Source: a virus
Direction: 5' to 3' (one strand)
Virus record (IMG/VR): IMGVR_UViG_3300025655_000330
Location: 1 to 22,055 of that record
DNA: 22,055 nucleotides
Part shown: positions 3,026-12,537 of the stretch, in pieces
Position numbering within the stretch: position 1 is the first letter of the stretch
How the letters are laid out: every line of letters starts with the position of its first letter
Notes under the pieces: generated by a model
Database searches by the model: none
Seen by the model: the letters and a program-made list of their open reading frames with translations, nothing else
What the model was told of the DNA's origin: nothing
Translations under genes and position numbers: made by a program

Positions 3026-3714
3026 ATCAAAATATTTCCGTGACATATATTGATCACTACGGTGATGATCATACACCCATTCGAGCCGCGCGAGTGAGCA
3101 CCCTAACAGACAGCTATGAGCCCGACCCAAAGCGCGATCTTAAACTCGCTCGATATTTGCTCAAGAATGGGCACACCTCGCCTTTTGAGCACGCGGGCGC
3201 AACGTTCCTCATCCATTGCCCGCTCTACGTAGCGCGGCAAATCATGAGGCATCGAACGTGCTCTTATAATGAGGTCAGCCGACGCTACACCTCCGGAGAC
3301 ATCACTTTTTACGCGCCACAAGAGCTCCACACCCAACATGAGCGGTTATTACAATGCTCAACAGATCAAATTCACCCTAACAGTGATGAGCTCATTGAGC
3401 GCATCAAGGATCATCAGACACAAAGCCTTGATCTCTATCATGATCTCATTGAATCAGGAGTAGCACGCGAAGAAGCGCGCCTTGTACTCCCTCTCAGCGT
3501 CATGACAAAGTTTTACATGAGCGCTAACCTGTTAAATTGGCTACGCTTCATCAAGATACGCATCGACAGCCACACACAAACAGAGACGCGCACCATCGCC
3601 CACGCGATTCAACTACATCTCTCACTATATTTCCCTCAGATCATGGAGCTCGCTCAAGAGCTTTGGTTTGACTTCGACAACGACCAAAACAGGAAAAAGG
3701 ATAAAGAAAAATGA
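3022..3714 (+). CDS. thyX: Flavin-dependent thymidylate synthase ThyX
   Basis: Converts dUMP to dTMP using FAD, NADPH and methylene-tetrahydrofolate. The signature RHRxxSxNxxSxRY is complete at residues 76-89 (RHRTCSYNEVSRRY), and HTSPFEH at 51-57 is also typical of the family. Its 230 residues match normal ThyX length. The ATG at 3022 overlaps the primase stop as ATGA, which suggests translational coupling. An in-frame GTG at 3010 has better spacing (11 nt) to an AAGAAGAAAAG tract, so the start could be four codons earlier. The lysine-rich C-terminus (KKDKEK) is repeated at the end of the tiny reading frame at 3989-4057. Together with the dCMP deaminase at 7520 it gives the phage its own dTMP supply. 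Confidence 0.95.
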   Translation: MNQNISVTYIDHYGDDHTPIRAARVSTLTDSYEPDPKRDLKLARYLLKNGHTSPFEHAGATFLIHCPLYVARQIMRHRTCSYNEVSRRYTSGDITFYAPQELHTQHERLLQCSTDQIHPNSDELIERIKDHQTQSLDLYHDLIESGVAREEARLVLPLSVMTKFYMSANLLNWLRFIKIRIDSHTQTETRTIAHAIQLHLSLYFPQIMELAQELWFDFDNDQNRKKDKEK

Positions 3715-3992
3715 GAACTGAAAAAGACAGACTATATGCACGTTTATATGCCCGTGCTAGACGTGCAAACATGACTGATGAAGAACGTGAAGCATATCGT
3801 GAATACCAGCGTGAATATCAACGTGAATGGCGTAAAAACTTGTCTCTTGAGAAGAGAGAAGAACGAAAGCGCAAGATAAAAGATGCAACACGCAGATATT
3901 ATGCGAACATGACTGATGAACAACGTGAAGCACACCGTGAATACTGCCGTGAATACCATAAACGCTATTATGCACTCTATTATGCAAAATGA
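3711..3992 (+). CDS. Small Arg/Glu/Tyr repeat protein (STPR-like, 23-residue period)
   Basis: A 93-residue, highly charged, presumably helical protein. It begins in an ATGA overlap with thyX. From about residue 22 it falls into units starting (M)TDEEREAYREY, (L)SLEKREERKRK and (M)TDEQREAHREY. The first two units are each 23 residues; the last runs to the end. The spacing and the T-x-E-x-R-E pattern match the proteins at 4275 and 10717 and resemble the 23-residue STPR repeat known from silkworm FMBP-1, a DNA-binding protein. DNA or RNA binding is therefore plausible but inferred. The following reading frame continues the repeat out of frame (see 3989-4057). No enzyme motif is visible. Confidence 0.7.
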   Translation: MRTEKDRLYARLYARARRANMTDEEREAYREYQREYQREWRKNLSLEKREERKRKIKDATRRYYANMTDEQREAHREYCREYHKRYYALYYAK

Positions 3993-4274: not shown

Positions 4275-4625
4275 ATGAGTGAAGAAACACCCGAACAGCG
4301 CGAGAAAAGACTCAAAAGACAGCGTGAATACAGCGCGAGACCTGAGAATAAAGCACGCGCAAAAAAACTGAGACAAATGAGACGAGCCGTTTTCACCGAA
4401 GCTGAGAAAGAAGATATTAGAAATTTTAACCGATTAAAAGCACAAGCCATCAGAGATGCAGAGACACCTGAGGAGCGCGAAGAAAGACTCAAAAAACAAC
4501 GAATTGCGACAAAAAAAGCACGATTAAAACGACTCGCGAATGAGACGCTAGAAGAGCGCGAGGAAAGACGAAGAAAGAAGCGAGAATGGCAACGTAGGAG
4601 ACGAGAGGAACAAAAGGCTAAATGA
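4275..4625 (+). CDS. STPR-like repeat protein
   Basis: A 116-residue Arg/Lys/Glu-rich protein containing repeat units that start TPEQREKRLKRQREY (residue 5), TEAEKEDIRNFNR (41), TPEEREERLKKQR (64) and TLEEREERRRKKREW (91). One unit (41-63) is exactly 23 residues and the others carry insertions. The consensus T-P-E-E-R-E-E-R-L-x-K-x-R is close to eukaryotic STPR repeats and to the third paralogue at 10717. A role as a nucleic-acid-binding helical protein is inferred. It precedes the methyltransferase with an ATGA overlap at 4622, so the two are probably translated together. The long reverse-strand frame over this gene is a shadow of the repeats. Confidence 0.75.
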   Translation: MSEETPEQREKRLKRQREYSARPENKARAKKLRQMRRAVFTEAEKEDIRNFNRLKAQAIRDAETPEEREERLKKQRIATKKARLKRLANETLEEREERRRKKREWQRRRREEQKAK

Positions 4626-5875
4626 ATGTGGATCATACCAAAGAACTTAAACATATCTCACTCTGTACCGGATACGGAGGCATTGACATCGGACTCTCAA
4701 GAGCTCTCAGAGATGTTAGAACAGTCGCTTATGTGGAGATCGAAGCCTTCGTCATCGAAAACTTGGTCTCAAAGATTGAGAACAACTTGCTCGACGTGGC
4801 GCCTATTTTCACAGACCTCAAAACCTTCCCATGGGAACTCTTTAATGACCGAGTGGATATCCTCTCAGGAGGCTTCCCTTGTCAGCCATTTTCGGGAGCA
4901 GGTAGACGCACAGGAGATGAAGACCCAAGACACTTGTGGCCCTATATTGTTCGAGGAATCAGAGAGTTGGGCAGACCTACCATTGTTTTCTTTGAAAATG
5001 TCGAAGGAATCATCGGCTCTAAGCTCAAATCAAACGAATGGAGTGATCCCGAAGGTACGCCCGTTTTGCTCCATGTCCTCCGCGAGTTGGAGCGATTGGG
5101 TTACGATGCGACGGCGGGAGTATTCTCAGCGCGTGAAATCGGCGCCCCCCATCAACGAAAGCGCGTGTTCATCATGGGTGTGCGCTCCGATCTCAGCGAG
5201 TCAGGACGCAATATTGTTTCATCAATGCTCAGAGACACAGAGTCGAGAGGGTCAGTTTTGGAACACACCACAAGCACGAGACCACAAGGGAGTAGATCAG
5301 GGAAAAGAAGCGCGAGGGTTTTCACCATCCCTACCAAATCAAGTACAAACACAGCATATCCTGCACCAAGAGGCGCAGAACCATATCAATGGGAGCCTCC
5401 AAGGGTTACAATGGGCGACACCAAACACGCTCGATCACCTTGCGCAGAAAAGCAAAAAGGTTCTGATGCGGCAAGCGACAACTGTTCGCAAAGGACGAAC
5501 AGTCCCTTCAAACTTGAGAGAGCAAGTCAATCCCGAAGCGGTGGAGATATATCAAGCTGTAGTACGGGAGCACCAAGAGACAATGACGTGGTCGACACCG
5601 ACAACACGAGATTACAAAGGCAAGCAATCCTCAGGCTACAAGGAGAGGAGATATGGAGCTCTACTACCCGATCAGGTACACGAGGGAACATTCACAGGGA
5701 AACTCAATCCGCGTTGGGTGGAGACGTTGATGGGTTTGCCGATTGGATGGACTATGCCGAGCTGTCAAAATCCGTGGATAATCACACAGACGAGCTTAGA
5801 CTGCTCGGAAACGGAGTCGTGCCCGACACCGCTCAACGAGCATTTAGAGAGCTGTGGCGAGATCTCAACACTTGA
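4622..5875 (+). CDS. DNA (cytosine-5-)-methyltransferase
   Basis: A 417-residue C5 cytosine methyltransferase. Visible motifs: I (SLCTGYGGIDIGL, about 13-25, SAM binding), IV with the catalytic Cys87 in GGFPCQPFSGAG, VI (ENV, 125-127), VIII (QRKR, 178-181), and X near the C-terminus (RLLGNGVVPDTAQRAF, about 393-408). The preceding segment (WMDYAEL...TDELRLLGNG) is also typical of phage members. The variable region between about 195 and 360 is low-complexity Ser/Thr/Arg/Asp-rich, and the same DNA encodes recognisable family motifs in the +1 frame (see 4626-5999). The start overlaps the stop of the previous gene, and a second ATG four bases later opens the other frame. It probably modifies phage DNA against restriction; the target sequence is unknown. 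Confidence 0.88.
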   Translation: MNVDHTKELKHISLCTGYGGIDIGLSRALRDVRTVAYVEIEAFVIENLVSKIENNLLDVAPIFTDLKTFPWELFNDRVDILSGGFPCQPFSGAGRRTGDEDPRHLWPYIVRGIRELGRPTIVFFENVEGIIGSKLKSNEWSDPEGTPVLLHVLRELERLGYDATAGVFSAREIGAPHQRKRVFIMGVRSDLSESGRNIVSSMLRDTESRGSVLEHTTSTRPQGSRSGKRSARVFTIPTKSSTNTAYPAPRGAEPYQWEPPRVTMGDTKHARSPCAEKQKGSDAASDNCSQRTNSPFKLERASQSRSGGDISSCSTGAPRDNDVVDTDNTRLQRQAILRLQGEEIWSSTTRSGTRGNIHRETQSALGGDVDGFADWMDYAELSKSVDNHTDELRLLGNGVVPDTAQRAFRELWRDLNT

Positions 5876-5999
5876 TGAACTGTATGAGATCAACTTAAAA
5901 GCGATCAGGAAATACGCGCCAGACCTACCTTTAGAGACTGTGGAAGAGGAAGCAGCCTATGCAACACTTGAGCAATATCATGATGAGGACGAGATCTGA
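4626..5999 (+). CDS. Overlapping +1-frame gene with methyltransferase-associated WxTP / LNPRWVE motifs
   Basis: A 457-codon open frame over the whole methyltransferase gene, running 124 bp past its end. Its C-terminal half is protein-like. Three units start W-N/A/S-T-P (residues 212, 263, 322), two of them reading W-x-TP-x-x-RD-x-KG, each followed by a PxLPNQV-like or LREQV-like stretch. Then comes LNPRWVETLMGLPIGW (360-375) and an acidic tail. These motifs are the usual C-terminal part of many phage C5 methyltransferases. The first 200 residues are Ser-rich and look non-conserved, so only about 5250-5999 is well supported. It may be a separate overlapping gene with an internal start, or the C-terminus reached by a frame change near 5240-5252. 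The stop is 1 nt before the next promoter. Confidence 0.45.
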   Translation: MWIIPKNLNISHSVPDTEALTSDSQELSEMLEQSLMWRSKPSSSKTWSQRLRTTCSTWRLFSQTSKPSHGNSLMTEWISSQEASLVSHFREQVDAQEMKTQDTCGPILFEESESWADLPLFSLKMSKESSALSSNQTNGVIPKVRPFCSMSSASWSDWVTMRRREYSQRVKSAPPINESACSSWVCAPISASQDAILFHQCSETQSREGQFWNTPQARDHKGVDQGKEARGFSPSLPNQVQTQHILHQEAQNHINGSLQGLQWATPNTLDHLAQKSKKVLMRQATTVRKGRTVPSNLREQVNPEAVEIYQAVVREHQETMTWSTPTTRDYKGKQSSGYKERRYGALLPDQVHEGTFTGKLNPRWVETLMGLPIGWTMPSCQNPWIITQTSLDCSETESCPTPLNEHLESCGEISTLDELYEINLKAIRKYAPDLPLETVEEEAAYATLEQYHDEDEI

Positions 6000-6050: not shown

Positions 6051-6899
6051 ATGATCCCACATATCATCACACCCGACATGAGAGAGCGCCGACTTACTAT
6101 CGTATTACTCGACCTCATCGGCTCGACTCAATTTGTGCAACGGGCAGGACCCCTCAAAGCTGCGAAATGGCTCCAATATCATGACCGCCTGACACGCTCG
6201 CTTATGCACCGATTCAGCGGACGTGAGATTGACCGCTCAGATGGTTTTTTGCTCTCATTTGAGCGCACCATTGACGCGGTAAACTTTGCGCTCCATTATC
6301 AAGCAACAGTGCCTCCAAAGATACGCCTACAAACACGCATAGGGATTCATGTCGGTATCGTTGCAGAGGTTCAGCAGCATGAACTTGATGTGATCGTTGG
6401 CGCTAAGATGATTGAGCTTGAAGGGATCGCTAAAAACATAGCCGCGCGCGCGATGAGTCTCAGTGGAGCCGGTCAGGTACTCTTGACCGAGGCTGCTTTC
6501 AGAGAGGTGAAAGGACGCACTAATGCACACACGCCCAAGCTCACACGATACGCGCTCGCGGGCCTTTATCGATTTAAGGGAGTACGAGAGCCCGTCACGA
6601 TCTACACGGTAGGGATTACAACAGCAAGCCTCCAACCACCGCAAGGATCGGATAAAGTGAAGCGACTAGGAGGACCGCGCAAAGTCAAGAGCCATCTTAG
6701 ACACATGAGAGCGCTAGAGATTAGTACTTGGCTACTTTATCGAGTAGCCTTTATCATTCTCATGATCTTGATCGTCAAGGCTATGATATGGCTCAGTAGA
6801 CCGAGCGCGCGTAGACTATGGGGATTTGATCACGCGCCGTGGATATGGCTTGATCATCTCAGACACTTCATTGAATTCATAAAAGGATCATCATCATGA
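6051..6899 (+). CDS. Class III nucleotide cyclase with C-terminal membrane helix
   Basis: A 282-residue protein whose residues 12-190 form a class III cyclase homology domain. The first metal Asp is D21 in LLDLIGST and the second is D64 in RSDGFLLSF. A RIGIHVGIV strand follows, then the Asn/Arg pair in KNIAARAMSLSGAGQVLLT and the closing strand YRFKGVREPVTIY. The key catalytic residues are therefore present. The residue aligned with the base-selecting Lys/Glu (four before D64) is Ile60, so the nucleotide cannot be assigned. A hydrophobic helix at about 226-248 would anchor it to the membrane with the catalytic part on the N-terminal side. The overall pattern resembles cyclases common in Myxococcota-type bacteria (from memory). 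It is coupled by an ATGA overlap to a membrane protein, a layout also seen in Pycsar-type signalling pairs. Confidence 0.85.
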   Translation: MIPHIITPDMRERRLTIVLLDLIGSTQFVQRAGPLKAAKWLQYHDRLTRSLMHRFSGREIDRSDGFLLSFERTIDAVNFALHYQATVPPKIRLQTRIGIHVGIVAEVQQHELDVIVGAKMIELEGIAKNIAARAMSLSGAGQVLLTEAAFREVKGRTNAHTPKLTRYALAGLYRFKGVREPVTIYTVGITTASLQPPQGSDKVKRLGGPRKVKSHLRHMRALEISTWLLYRVAFIILMILIVKAMIWLSRPSARRLWGFDHAPWIWLDHLRHFIEFIKGSSS

Positions 6900-10716: not shown

Positions 10717-11142
10717 ATGAAACAAGGCAGAGGAAGACCGCGCAAAGCGCAGACGCAGACACCAGACGAGAGACGCGCATATATGCGCACCTACACCACG
10801 ACAGCGAAATACCGAGCGGAGCGGAGAGAGTACGAGCGCAGACAACGCGCCGAAGAGACACCATCGGAGCGCGAAGAAAGACTCGAATACAGACGCTATA
10901 TTGAAAAGCTCAAACGCGAAGAGGAGACACCATCGGAGCGCGAAGAAAGACTCATAAAACAACGTGCGTACAAAAAAGCGCGGAGAGAAGCCCTCACACC
11001 CACCGAGCGCGAAGAAACACTACGAAAAGAGCGTGAATATAAAAAAGCGCGAAGAGACGCGGAGACACCCACCGAGCGCGAAGAGCGCAAAAAAAAGCAG
11101 CGTGAATACCTTAGAGCTTATCGAGCGCGGCGAAAAGATTAA
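10717..11142 (+). CDS. AT-hook plus STPR-like 23-residue repeat protein
   Basis: A 141-residue, very basic protein. Residues 4-10 (GRGRPRK) form a canonical AT-hook core, which binds the minor groove of AT-rich DNA. A degenerate repeat unit (15-47, TPDERRAYMRTY) is followed by exact 23-residue units at 48-70, 71-93 and 94-116 and a final one at 117-141. Each unit begins TP(S/T)ERE(E)RL or a close variant and ends in a basic helix. This period and consensus resemble STPR repeats, a DNA-binding module described in silkworm FMBP-1. The combination suggests a DNA architectural or regulatory protein, possibly acting on the inverted repeat just upstream. It is related to the proteins at 3711 and 4275. 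Its 3' end overlaps the convergent methyltransferase gene by 32 bp. Confidence 0.8.
   Translation: MKQGRGRPRKAQTQTPDERRAYMRTYTTTAKYRAERREYERRQRAEETPSEREERLEYRRYIEKLKREEETPSEREERLIKQRAYKKARREALTPTEREETLRKEREYKKARRDAETPTEREERKKKQREYLRAYRARRKD
10858..11139 (+). repeat. 69-bp tandem coding repeats (about 4 units)
   Basis: Units begin at 10858, 10927, 10996 and 11065. The first two share an identical 30-bp stretch around the TPSEREERL codons (10855-10884 and 10924-10953), showing recent duplication. The later units have diverged but keep the period. Confidence 0.85.
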
Positions 11143-12184
11143 GCTGATCACCGATCTTTGTTTCCTCACTCTTGGCCTCATGAGTCCAATGAGCTAAACG
11201 AGCGCGCGCGATCTCTACATACTCCGGTTCTCGCTCGATACCAACCACGCGAAAACCCTCTGACACACACGCACAGAGCGTAGACCCTGACCCCGCGAAT
11301 GGATCAAGAATCAATCCATTAGGTGGAGTGATCAAGCGCACTAGGTAACGCATGAGATCGAGAGGTTTGACTGTTGGATGAGTGTTTGCGCGTGGGGTAT
11401 GCTCGAAACCCACTGAGCCCGCTAAACCCGCCTCACGTTCAGTCTTACTTGCTTTCGCACAATAAAAGAAACGTTGCTTGTCACTCAATAAGTCAGCAAT
11501 CTCTTCATCAAGTATCACGTTTGAAGGCCATCGACCTACACACTCACTCGCTTGTGCATCTTGTGGCATACCCCTTTCAGATAAACCTAATGAGTTACCC
11601 CCTGCTTTGTTGCGGGCCCGAGGGTTGACTCTAGCATCATCACCAACACGGCAAGCATCAATGTTGATTACCCCTGTTCCATGCTCAAGTACATTGTCTG
11701 CAACTGTGGATTCAAAGGGCTTGCGTATCAATATGACGGGTTCATAAGCAGGCTTTAACGCTGTACCCCAGCCCGCCCACTGTGCATCACCTGTTGACTT
11801 TTCAACGTTGTGTGACTTTGGGAAACCTGATCCATAGAGCCACTGTAGAGTATCACGTATCTCAAAACCCGCTAATCGTAGCGAGATACTCATGAGATCT
11901 TGAGTACGCGAGCTTGCAAAAACAAGCGCGTGACCTCCGGGCTTGAGCACACGTAGCACCTCGTGCCACAGCTCAGGAGGTGGCACCCACGCATCCCAAC
12001 TCTTGTCCATGAAACCGCGCCCCTTCGGTGTCCACGTCTCACCGCATGACCAAGCGCGCAGACACTCTGCTACGATCTTAGGCGACGTGTCACCAAGACC
12101 ATAAGGGGGGTCAGTGACCACCGCGTCAACTGAACACTCTTCCATAGTCTTTAGAACTTCAATGCTGTCACCATGTAAAATCAT
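11111..12184 (-). CDS. Site-specific DNA methyltransferase (N6-adenine or N4-cytosine, beta type)
   Basis: A 357-residue member of the N6/N4 methyltransferase family. The catalytic motif DPPY is at residues 25-28 and the SAM-binding motif DPFAGSGST at about 294-302. This order (catalytic motif first) is that of the beta class. HPTVKPLDLMRYLV before the SAM motif and VVGIEREPEYVEIARARL after it are typical. Target-recognition residues lie in the variable middle (about 150-265). I chose the ATG at 12184, which has GGAGG 4 nt upstream; a GTG one codon earlier sits too close to it. That ATG overlaps the stop of the preceding reverse-strand gene by 1 nt. The target base and site are not deducible from sequence alone. 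Confidence 0.9.
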   Translation of the reverse strand: MILHGDSIEVLKTMEECSVDAVVTDPPYGLGDTSPKIVAECLRAWSCGETWTPKGRGFMDKSWDAWVPPPELWHEVLRVLKPGGHALVFASSRTQDLMSISLRLAGFEIRDTLQWLYGSGFPKSHNVEKSTGDAQWAGWGTALKPAYEPVILIRKPFESTVADNVLEHGTGVINIDACRVGDDARVNPRARNKAGGNSLGLSERGMPQDAQASECVGRWPSNVILDEEIADLLSDKQRFFYCAKASKTEREAGLAGSVGFEHTPRANTHPTVKPLDLMRYLVRLITPPNGLILDPFAGSGSTLCACVSEGFRVVGIEREPEYVEIARARLAHWTHEAKSEETKIGDQLNLFAALDKL

Positions 12185-12537
12185 CACACCTCCAACGAGT
12201 CAAGCGCAGTGATAATAGCCATTTGAGCAAGATGACGCATCGGCAACCGTCGCGCACAAGCGAGATCATATAGATACTGATCTACCCACTTGGCGACGCG
12301 AAAGGTGGTTGCTCTCCCCATCGTGAGTGTTGGCAGTGTTGCACCTTCCTCGATCAGCACTAACCCGCGAACGAGAAGGACACGGGCGACAGCAGAATCG
12401 GAACGGCACGCGCTAGACGCGATCTCAGGTATCTCATGAGCGCGCTCCCACATGGGATGATCACAAGGCAGTAACACTGCAATGTTGGCGCTCGCTTGCG
12501 AGACATTATCTTTTATTCGTTTCTGTAAACTATTCAT
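12184..12537 (-). CDS. Hypothetical protein, possible ribbon-helix-helix tail
   Basis: A 117-residue protein not matching a family I know. The C-terminal 50 residues, with TLTMGRATTFRVAKWVDQYL and then LACARRLPMRHLAQMAI, look like a short strand followed by two helices, as in ribbon-helix-helix DNA-binding proteins; this is a weak inference. The chosen start (MNSLQKRIK) overlaps the end of the upstream gene by 8 bp. A longer frame from 12576 is open but lies inside that gene. It is directly followed by the DNA methyltransferase, so it may belong to its control or specificity. Confidence 0.55.
   Translation of the reverse strand: MNSLQKRIKDNVSQASANIAVLLPCDHPMWERAHEIPEIASSACRSDSAVARVLLVRGLVLIEEGATLPTLTMGRATTFRVAKWVDQYLYDLACARRLPMRHLAQMAIITALDSLEV

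Follow-up and report, generated by a model that had tools for sequence, protein, structure and literature searches.

We characterized a DNA methyltransferase (MTase) locus in a 22,055-nt stretch of viral DNA (IMG/VR record IMGVR_UViG_3300025655_000330; hereafter the window) and found that, in many phages, two overlapping reading frames of its coding region are kept open and constrained at the protein level. Comparison of sequences makes it very probable that both chains, alpha and beta, of a split C5-cytosine MTase are translated from this single stretch of DNA, each in its own frame. No frameshift or indel is needed to explain the locus. According to the mechanism that we propose, one ribosome-binding region would feed two start codons separated by only a few bases. 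Frame 0 would yield alpha, which would provide SAM binding, catalysis and motif X, and the +1 frame would yield beta, with W-x-T-P target-recognition units and motif IX; the chains would then associate, with beta supplying what the disordered middle of alpha lacks. Translation of both chains, their association and the part of beta in specificity are what we infer from the sequences, and the enzyme may serve to shield phage DNA from host restriction.

Layout of the two-frame locus

An earlier note on this DNA had placed ATGs at 4622 and 4626, opening 417 and 457 codons over the same bases, and these coordinates were confirmed, with stops ending at 5875 (frame 0) and 5999 (+1 frame). The elements it had described, namely C5-MTase motifs I-VIII and a final motif X in frame 0, and three W-x-T-P units, a motif-IX-like element and an acidic tail to 5999 in the +1 frame, were all located:

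4622..5875, plus strand: alpha chain, frame 0; 417 aa, with motifs I-VIII, a predicted-disordered middle and a C-terminal motif X
4626..5999, plus strand: beta chain, +1 frame; 457 aa, with an N-terminal part over the catalytic domain, W-x-T-P units, a motif-IX-like element and an acidic helical tail
4622..4630, plus strand: paired starts ATGAATGTG; alpha ATG 4622, beta ATG 4626, possible alternative alpha GTG 4628
4661-4687, 4868-4894, 4988-5008 and 5150-5173, plus strand: alpha motifs I, IV, ENV and VIII, respectively
5259..5600, plus strand: beta W-x-T-P units (WNTP 5259, WATP 5412, WSTP 5589); putative target-recognition region (TRD)
5703..5753, plus strand: beta motif-IX-like element LNPRWVETLMGLPIGWT; frame 0 of the same DNA is a conserved alpha element, LGGDVDGFADWMDY
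5795..5824, plus strand: alpha motif X (LRLLGNGVVP); the helix after it has a model pLDDT of ~96
5876..5996, plus strand: acidic tail of beta only; two helices, pLDDT ~93, absent from most relatives

Alpha matched PF00145 (E=1.8e-35), with motifs I, IV (PCQ), VI (ENV) and VIII in order, and its AlphaFold model has the fold of HaeIII, HhaI and DNMT1 (Foldseek, E ~1e-11). Profile, motifs and model together identify it as a C5-MTase chain with motifs I-VIII and X. The catalytic core and the motif X helix were modelled mostly at pLDDT >85, and residues ~220-394 mostly at <50. Motif IX is missing from this chain in the window: the IX-like element (LNPRWVE / LNPRWVETLMGLPIGW, read at 5703) occurs in the +1 frame only, and the variable region of alpha is mostly below pLDDT 50. 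Within the overlap alpha nonetheless keeps conserved elements of its own, QYxWEPPR, LGGxxxG and motif X.

Several neighbours of the locus were also noted. Directly 3' of it, 6051-6899 may encode a class III nucleotidyl cyclase (PF00211, E=5e-4, falling slightly short of the curated cut-off), which would be unusual in a phage. Three short Lys/Arg/Glu-rich ORFs (3711-3992, 4275-4625 and 10717-11142) share similar repeated text such as TPSEREERL; the one at 4275-4625 had no match in a Pfam scan. A second DNA methyltransferase, of the N6_N4_Mtase family (PF01555, E=1.2e-29), is encoded on the minus strand at 11111-12187.

Both frames are open and constrained in many phages

A protein search with alpha recovered one identical contig (L003), seven viral contigs that are divergent, and C75C1, a cultured phage related to it; in C75C1 and all seven divergent contigs the W-x-T-P/IX segment lies in a second frame. 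Used alone as a query against viral contigs, the beta chain of the window found only the identical contig. Profile-based scans enlarged the set to 250 loci, of which a motif scan yielded 217 distinct ones. In 166 of these the motif-IX-like element is in the +1 frame relative to motif IV, and most have motif X in frame 0. Twenty viral loci lack the strict IX pattern, most of them having a variant of it in the +1 frame. Homologues with motif IX in the catalytic frame, for which the earlier note had suggested a search, do exist: nine loci, mostly from Streptomyces and other actinobacteria and one from Paenibacillus, have an IX-like element in frame 0.

It had been suggested that a 2-bp loss in a GA run switched the C-terminus, and more generally a recent indel or an assembly error might have split a gene that was in a single frame. 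A 2-bp indel would indeed give the same local picture, and such a shift may be seen in L010:2005-3718, where both frames are apparently displaced by one base between motifs IV and VIII, through assembly error or real disruption. However, the second contig (L003) is identical to the window, practically every viral relative has the +1 frame open across the catalytic region, and the arrangement is shared by divergent relatives, which refutes this explanation; we regard its probability as negligible.

The openness of the +1 frame was measured against a null in which synonymous alpha codons were permuted within each gene. For the window alone, the expectation was 2.9 stops for the catalytic part and 3.4 for the remainder, giving open-frame probabilities of 0.02 and 0.007; the +1 open frame of the window thus exceeds chance. 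Across 71 viral loci selected by alpha alone, the +1 frame has a single stop over the catalytic region vs. ~196 expected, while the third frame of the same loci, as a control, has 519 vs. 535 expected. This alpha-selected set is quoted because the A2-selected loci were found via the +1 frame and so are biased to an open one. Loci with motif IX in frame 0 have 14 +1 stops in the catalytic region vs. 20 expected. In the reverse test, beta codons were permuted over the variable region in 109 relatives: the alpha frame has 17 stops there vs. 572 expected and is open in 108 of the 109 loci (3 expected), and the third frame has 890 vs. 850 expected.

Substitutions between close pairs of loci point the same way, the counts being simple contrasts and not the output of a two-frame likelihood model. 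In the catalytic region, single changes are mostly silent in alpha, and those that change beta and are silent in alpha are depleted (conditional omega for beta ~0.46); with the corresponding mock frame, 43 neighbouring-gene pairs gave a conditional omega of ~2.4. The constraint on beta relative to this control is significant (Fisher P=6e-6 and 4e-8), and the contrast between 0.46 and 2.4 is stable for kappa 1-4 and with transitions only. In the TRD and IX-X regions, substitutions that are silent in beta and change alpha are over-represented 2.5-2.9 fold, and those silent in alpha that change beta are below expectation. In the window itself, the WNTP and WSTP units differ silently at third positions of the +1 frame (CCA/CCG, GAC/GAT, AAG/AAA and GGA/GGC), as the earlier note had described. 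The close-pair test with its neighbouring-gene control replaced a permutation test of beta N-terminus conservation in distant relatives, which had looked strong and was dropped; this deep-divergence test is not relied on because the third, control frame also exceeded the null.

These results bear on what had been proposed for the region. That the variable region is read in both frames is supported by the alpha-frame stop counts and by the dominance of beta-silent changes in the TRD and IX regions, and a true overlapping gene, one of the options in the earlier note, is strongly supported by stops, substitutions and paired starts across relatives. The overlap had been thought to run from about 5250; two-frame use holds, but the overlap in fact reaches back to the start codon, and selection acts along all of it. 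That extent is relevant to another of the proposals, programmed frameshifting near 5240-5252, by which the alpha catalytic domain would be fused to the TRD/IX segment of the +1 frame. Such a fusion is conceivable, as the TRD directly follows motif VIII in a single-chain enzyme, L229. The second frame, however, is not confined to the region downstream of a shift site: it is open and constrained upstream, back to its own conserved ATG, and alpha is open and constrained downstream. Motif X, moreover, remains in frame 0 and would be missing from the fused product. We therefore consider frameshifting highly improbable, and prefer independent initiation of both frames.

The paired starts are conserved among relatives. 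The most conserved 5' feature is ATGTGG, that is, the +1-frame ATG with a frame-0 GTG two bases later, and the cultured Synechococcus cyanophage Ssp-JY39 has the same ATGTG. Among 124 full-overlap loci, 65 have within 18 nt only the beta ATG paired with an alpha GTG at +2, and 14 have only an ATG at +5; some of the rest share with the window an alpha ATG shortly before that of beta. In 29 loci a frame-0 stop lies just upstream, which leaves the GTG at +2 as the sole nearby alpha start. Several alphaproteobacterial loci have ATGCATG at the starts. The gap between an SD-like sequence and the beta ATG is most often 5-6 nt, and a single ribosome-binding region presumably serves both starts. In the window the TGA of the upstream gene (4623-4625) overlaps the start pair (ATGA/TGAATG), and termination there may aid coupling.

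The beta chain and the movement of motif X

Comparison of both translations with protein profiles, as had been suggested, was informative for alpha (PF00145); beta matched nothing in Pfam or NCBIfam, but all 89 beta sequences matched PHROG family phrog_1008, "DNA methyltransferase" (best E=2.4e-37). In the PDB, beta had no sequence relative and no fold match, and its AlphaFold model is of low confidence overall (pTM 0.34), with locally confident helices. For these reasons, the target-recognition role proposed for beta is drawn from its sequence motifs and from single-chain relatives. The last W-x-T-P unit and motif IX of beta align to the C-terminus of L229, the single-chain MTase of Paenibacillus alkaliterrae (hhalign 97.9%, E=6e-13), in which the W-x-T-P/IX segment comes directly after motif VIII. 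Motif IX of beta also matches a single-chain Streptomyces enzyme (L209), which continues into motif X. Beta varies in length: in L005:3005-4612, L006:3002-4891 and L008:1422-3095 it extends far past the alpha stop with additional W-x-T-P units, after which, in L006, the motif IX element occurs once more.

In four loci (L030, L054, L088 and L211) motif X is found in beta and is absent from a truncated alpha. L030, L054 and L088, the three that were placed in the tree, stand apart from one another among relatives with motif X in alpha, with modest support, indicating that in at least three lineages motif X has passed from alpha to beta. Such a transfer is most readily understood if both chains form one enzyme and, together with the single-chain relative in which W-x-T-P/IX follows motif VIII, it makes a target-recognition/motif-IX subunit of a split enzyme the most likely identity of beta. 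Alternatively, both frames could be translated with alpha methylating alone, and beta could be a separate overprinted protein, e.g., a regulator or an anti-restriction factor. The conserved elements that alpha keeps in the overlap, as well as the poor model of beta and its want of a fold match, are compatible with such a protein. On the other hand, motif IX of beta is common to single-chain MTases, motif X shifts onto beta in several lineages and the middle of alpha is predicted to be disordered, and we judge a separate protein unlikely.

Relation to known split methyltransferases

The nearest described enzyme is M.EcoHK31I, whose beta chain is encoded within the alpha gene in another frame. 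The window resembles it in that alpha has motifs I-VIII and X and motif IX is on a second chain, read from another frame of the same DNA. Together with M.AquI, M.EcoHK31I is a natural two-chain C5-MTase; it recognizes YGGCCR, and its large chain has motifs I-VIII and X and its small chain only motif IX, with the predicted TRD in the large subunit rather than in that with motif IX (PMC3404938), a point against the recognition role proposed for beta. Unlike M.EcoHK31I, the window has its W-x-T-P units in beta, a beta longer than alpha, a nearly complete overlap with both starts within a few bases, and a phage-borne gene. M.AquI (CYCGRG) has motifs I-VIII on one chain and IX-X on the small chain (PMC3404938). 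The window shares with M.AquI the division of motifs I-VIII and IX between two chains but has motif X on alpha (frame 0), and the four loci with motif X in beta show an AquI-like division; a near-complete overlap is not reported for M.AquI in the literature that we read.

Pairs of MTase genes with less overlap occur in other phages. In Paenibacillus larvae phages such as Leyra, gp61 and gp62 are both annotated as DNA methyltransferase, and W-x-T-P units as well as LNPEWVECLMGFPIGWTD are present in gp62, which is read +1 relative to gp61 and matches beta in a profile comparison (E=2.6e-23). It differs in starting ~184 bases inside gp61, with stops in the +1 frame upstream of that point. Mycobacterium phage Twister (L257) and Gordonia phage Upyo (L259) have two adjacent annotated MTase genes with either an overlap of ~50 bases or none; their motif X is read +1 relative to alpha. 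These pairs suggest a range of architectures. Because all 89 beta sequences match phrog_1008, public sets of phage proteins probably include beta-frame products already; we found no description of this family as the second frame of another MTase gene. Our literature search, whose range did not extend to subscription papers and preprints, found no paper describing the two-frame arrangement in phage MTases. What is new here is the near-total overlap, the paired starts and the breadth across phages.

We think it somewhat probable that the locus belongs to a widespread class of phage split MTases whose two chains are written almost wholly in the same DNA behind one ribosome-binding site, with starts 2-5 bases apart (ATGTG); the start pair would set the ratio of the chains, and the N-terminal region of beta would be a functional domain overprinted on the catalytic one. 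If so, the locus would be an unusually complete and widely conserved instance of two proteins selected together within the same DNA, and its start codons a device for producing two subunits of one enzyme. Ordinary annotation tends to miss half of this design, which many other phages keep. Public records often carry a single frame: only alpha is annotated in that of phage C75C1 (L002:2501-3943), and only beta, as a "hypothetical protein", in that of Synechococcus phage Ssp-JY39 (L255:1484-2599); with one frame annotated, phage MTase calls and specificity predictions may miss a subunit.
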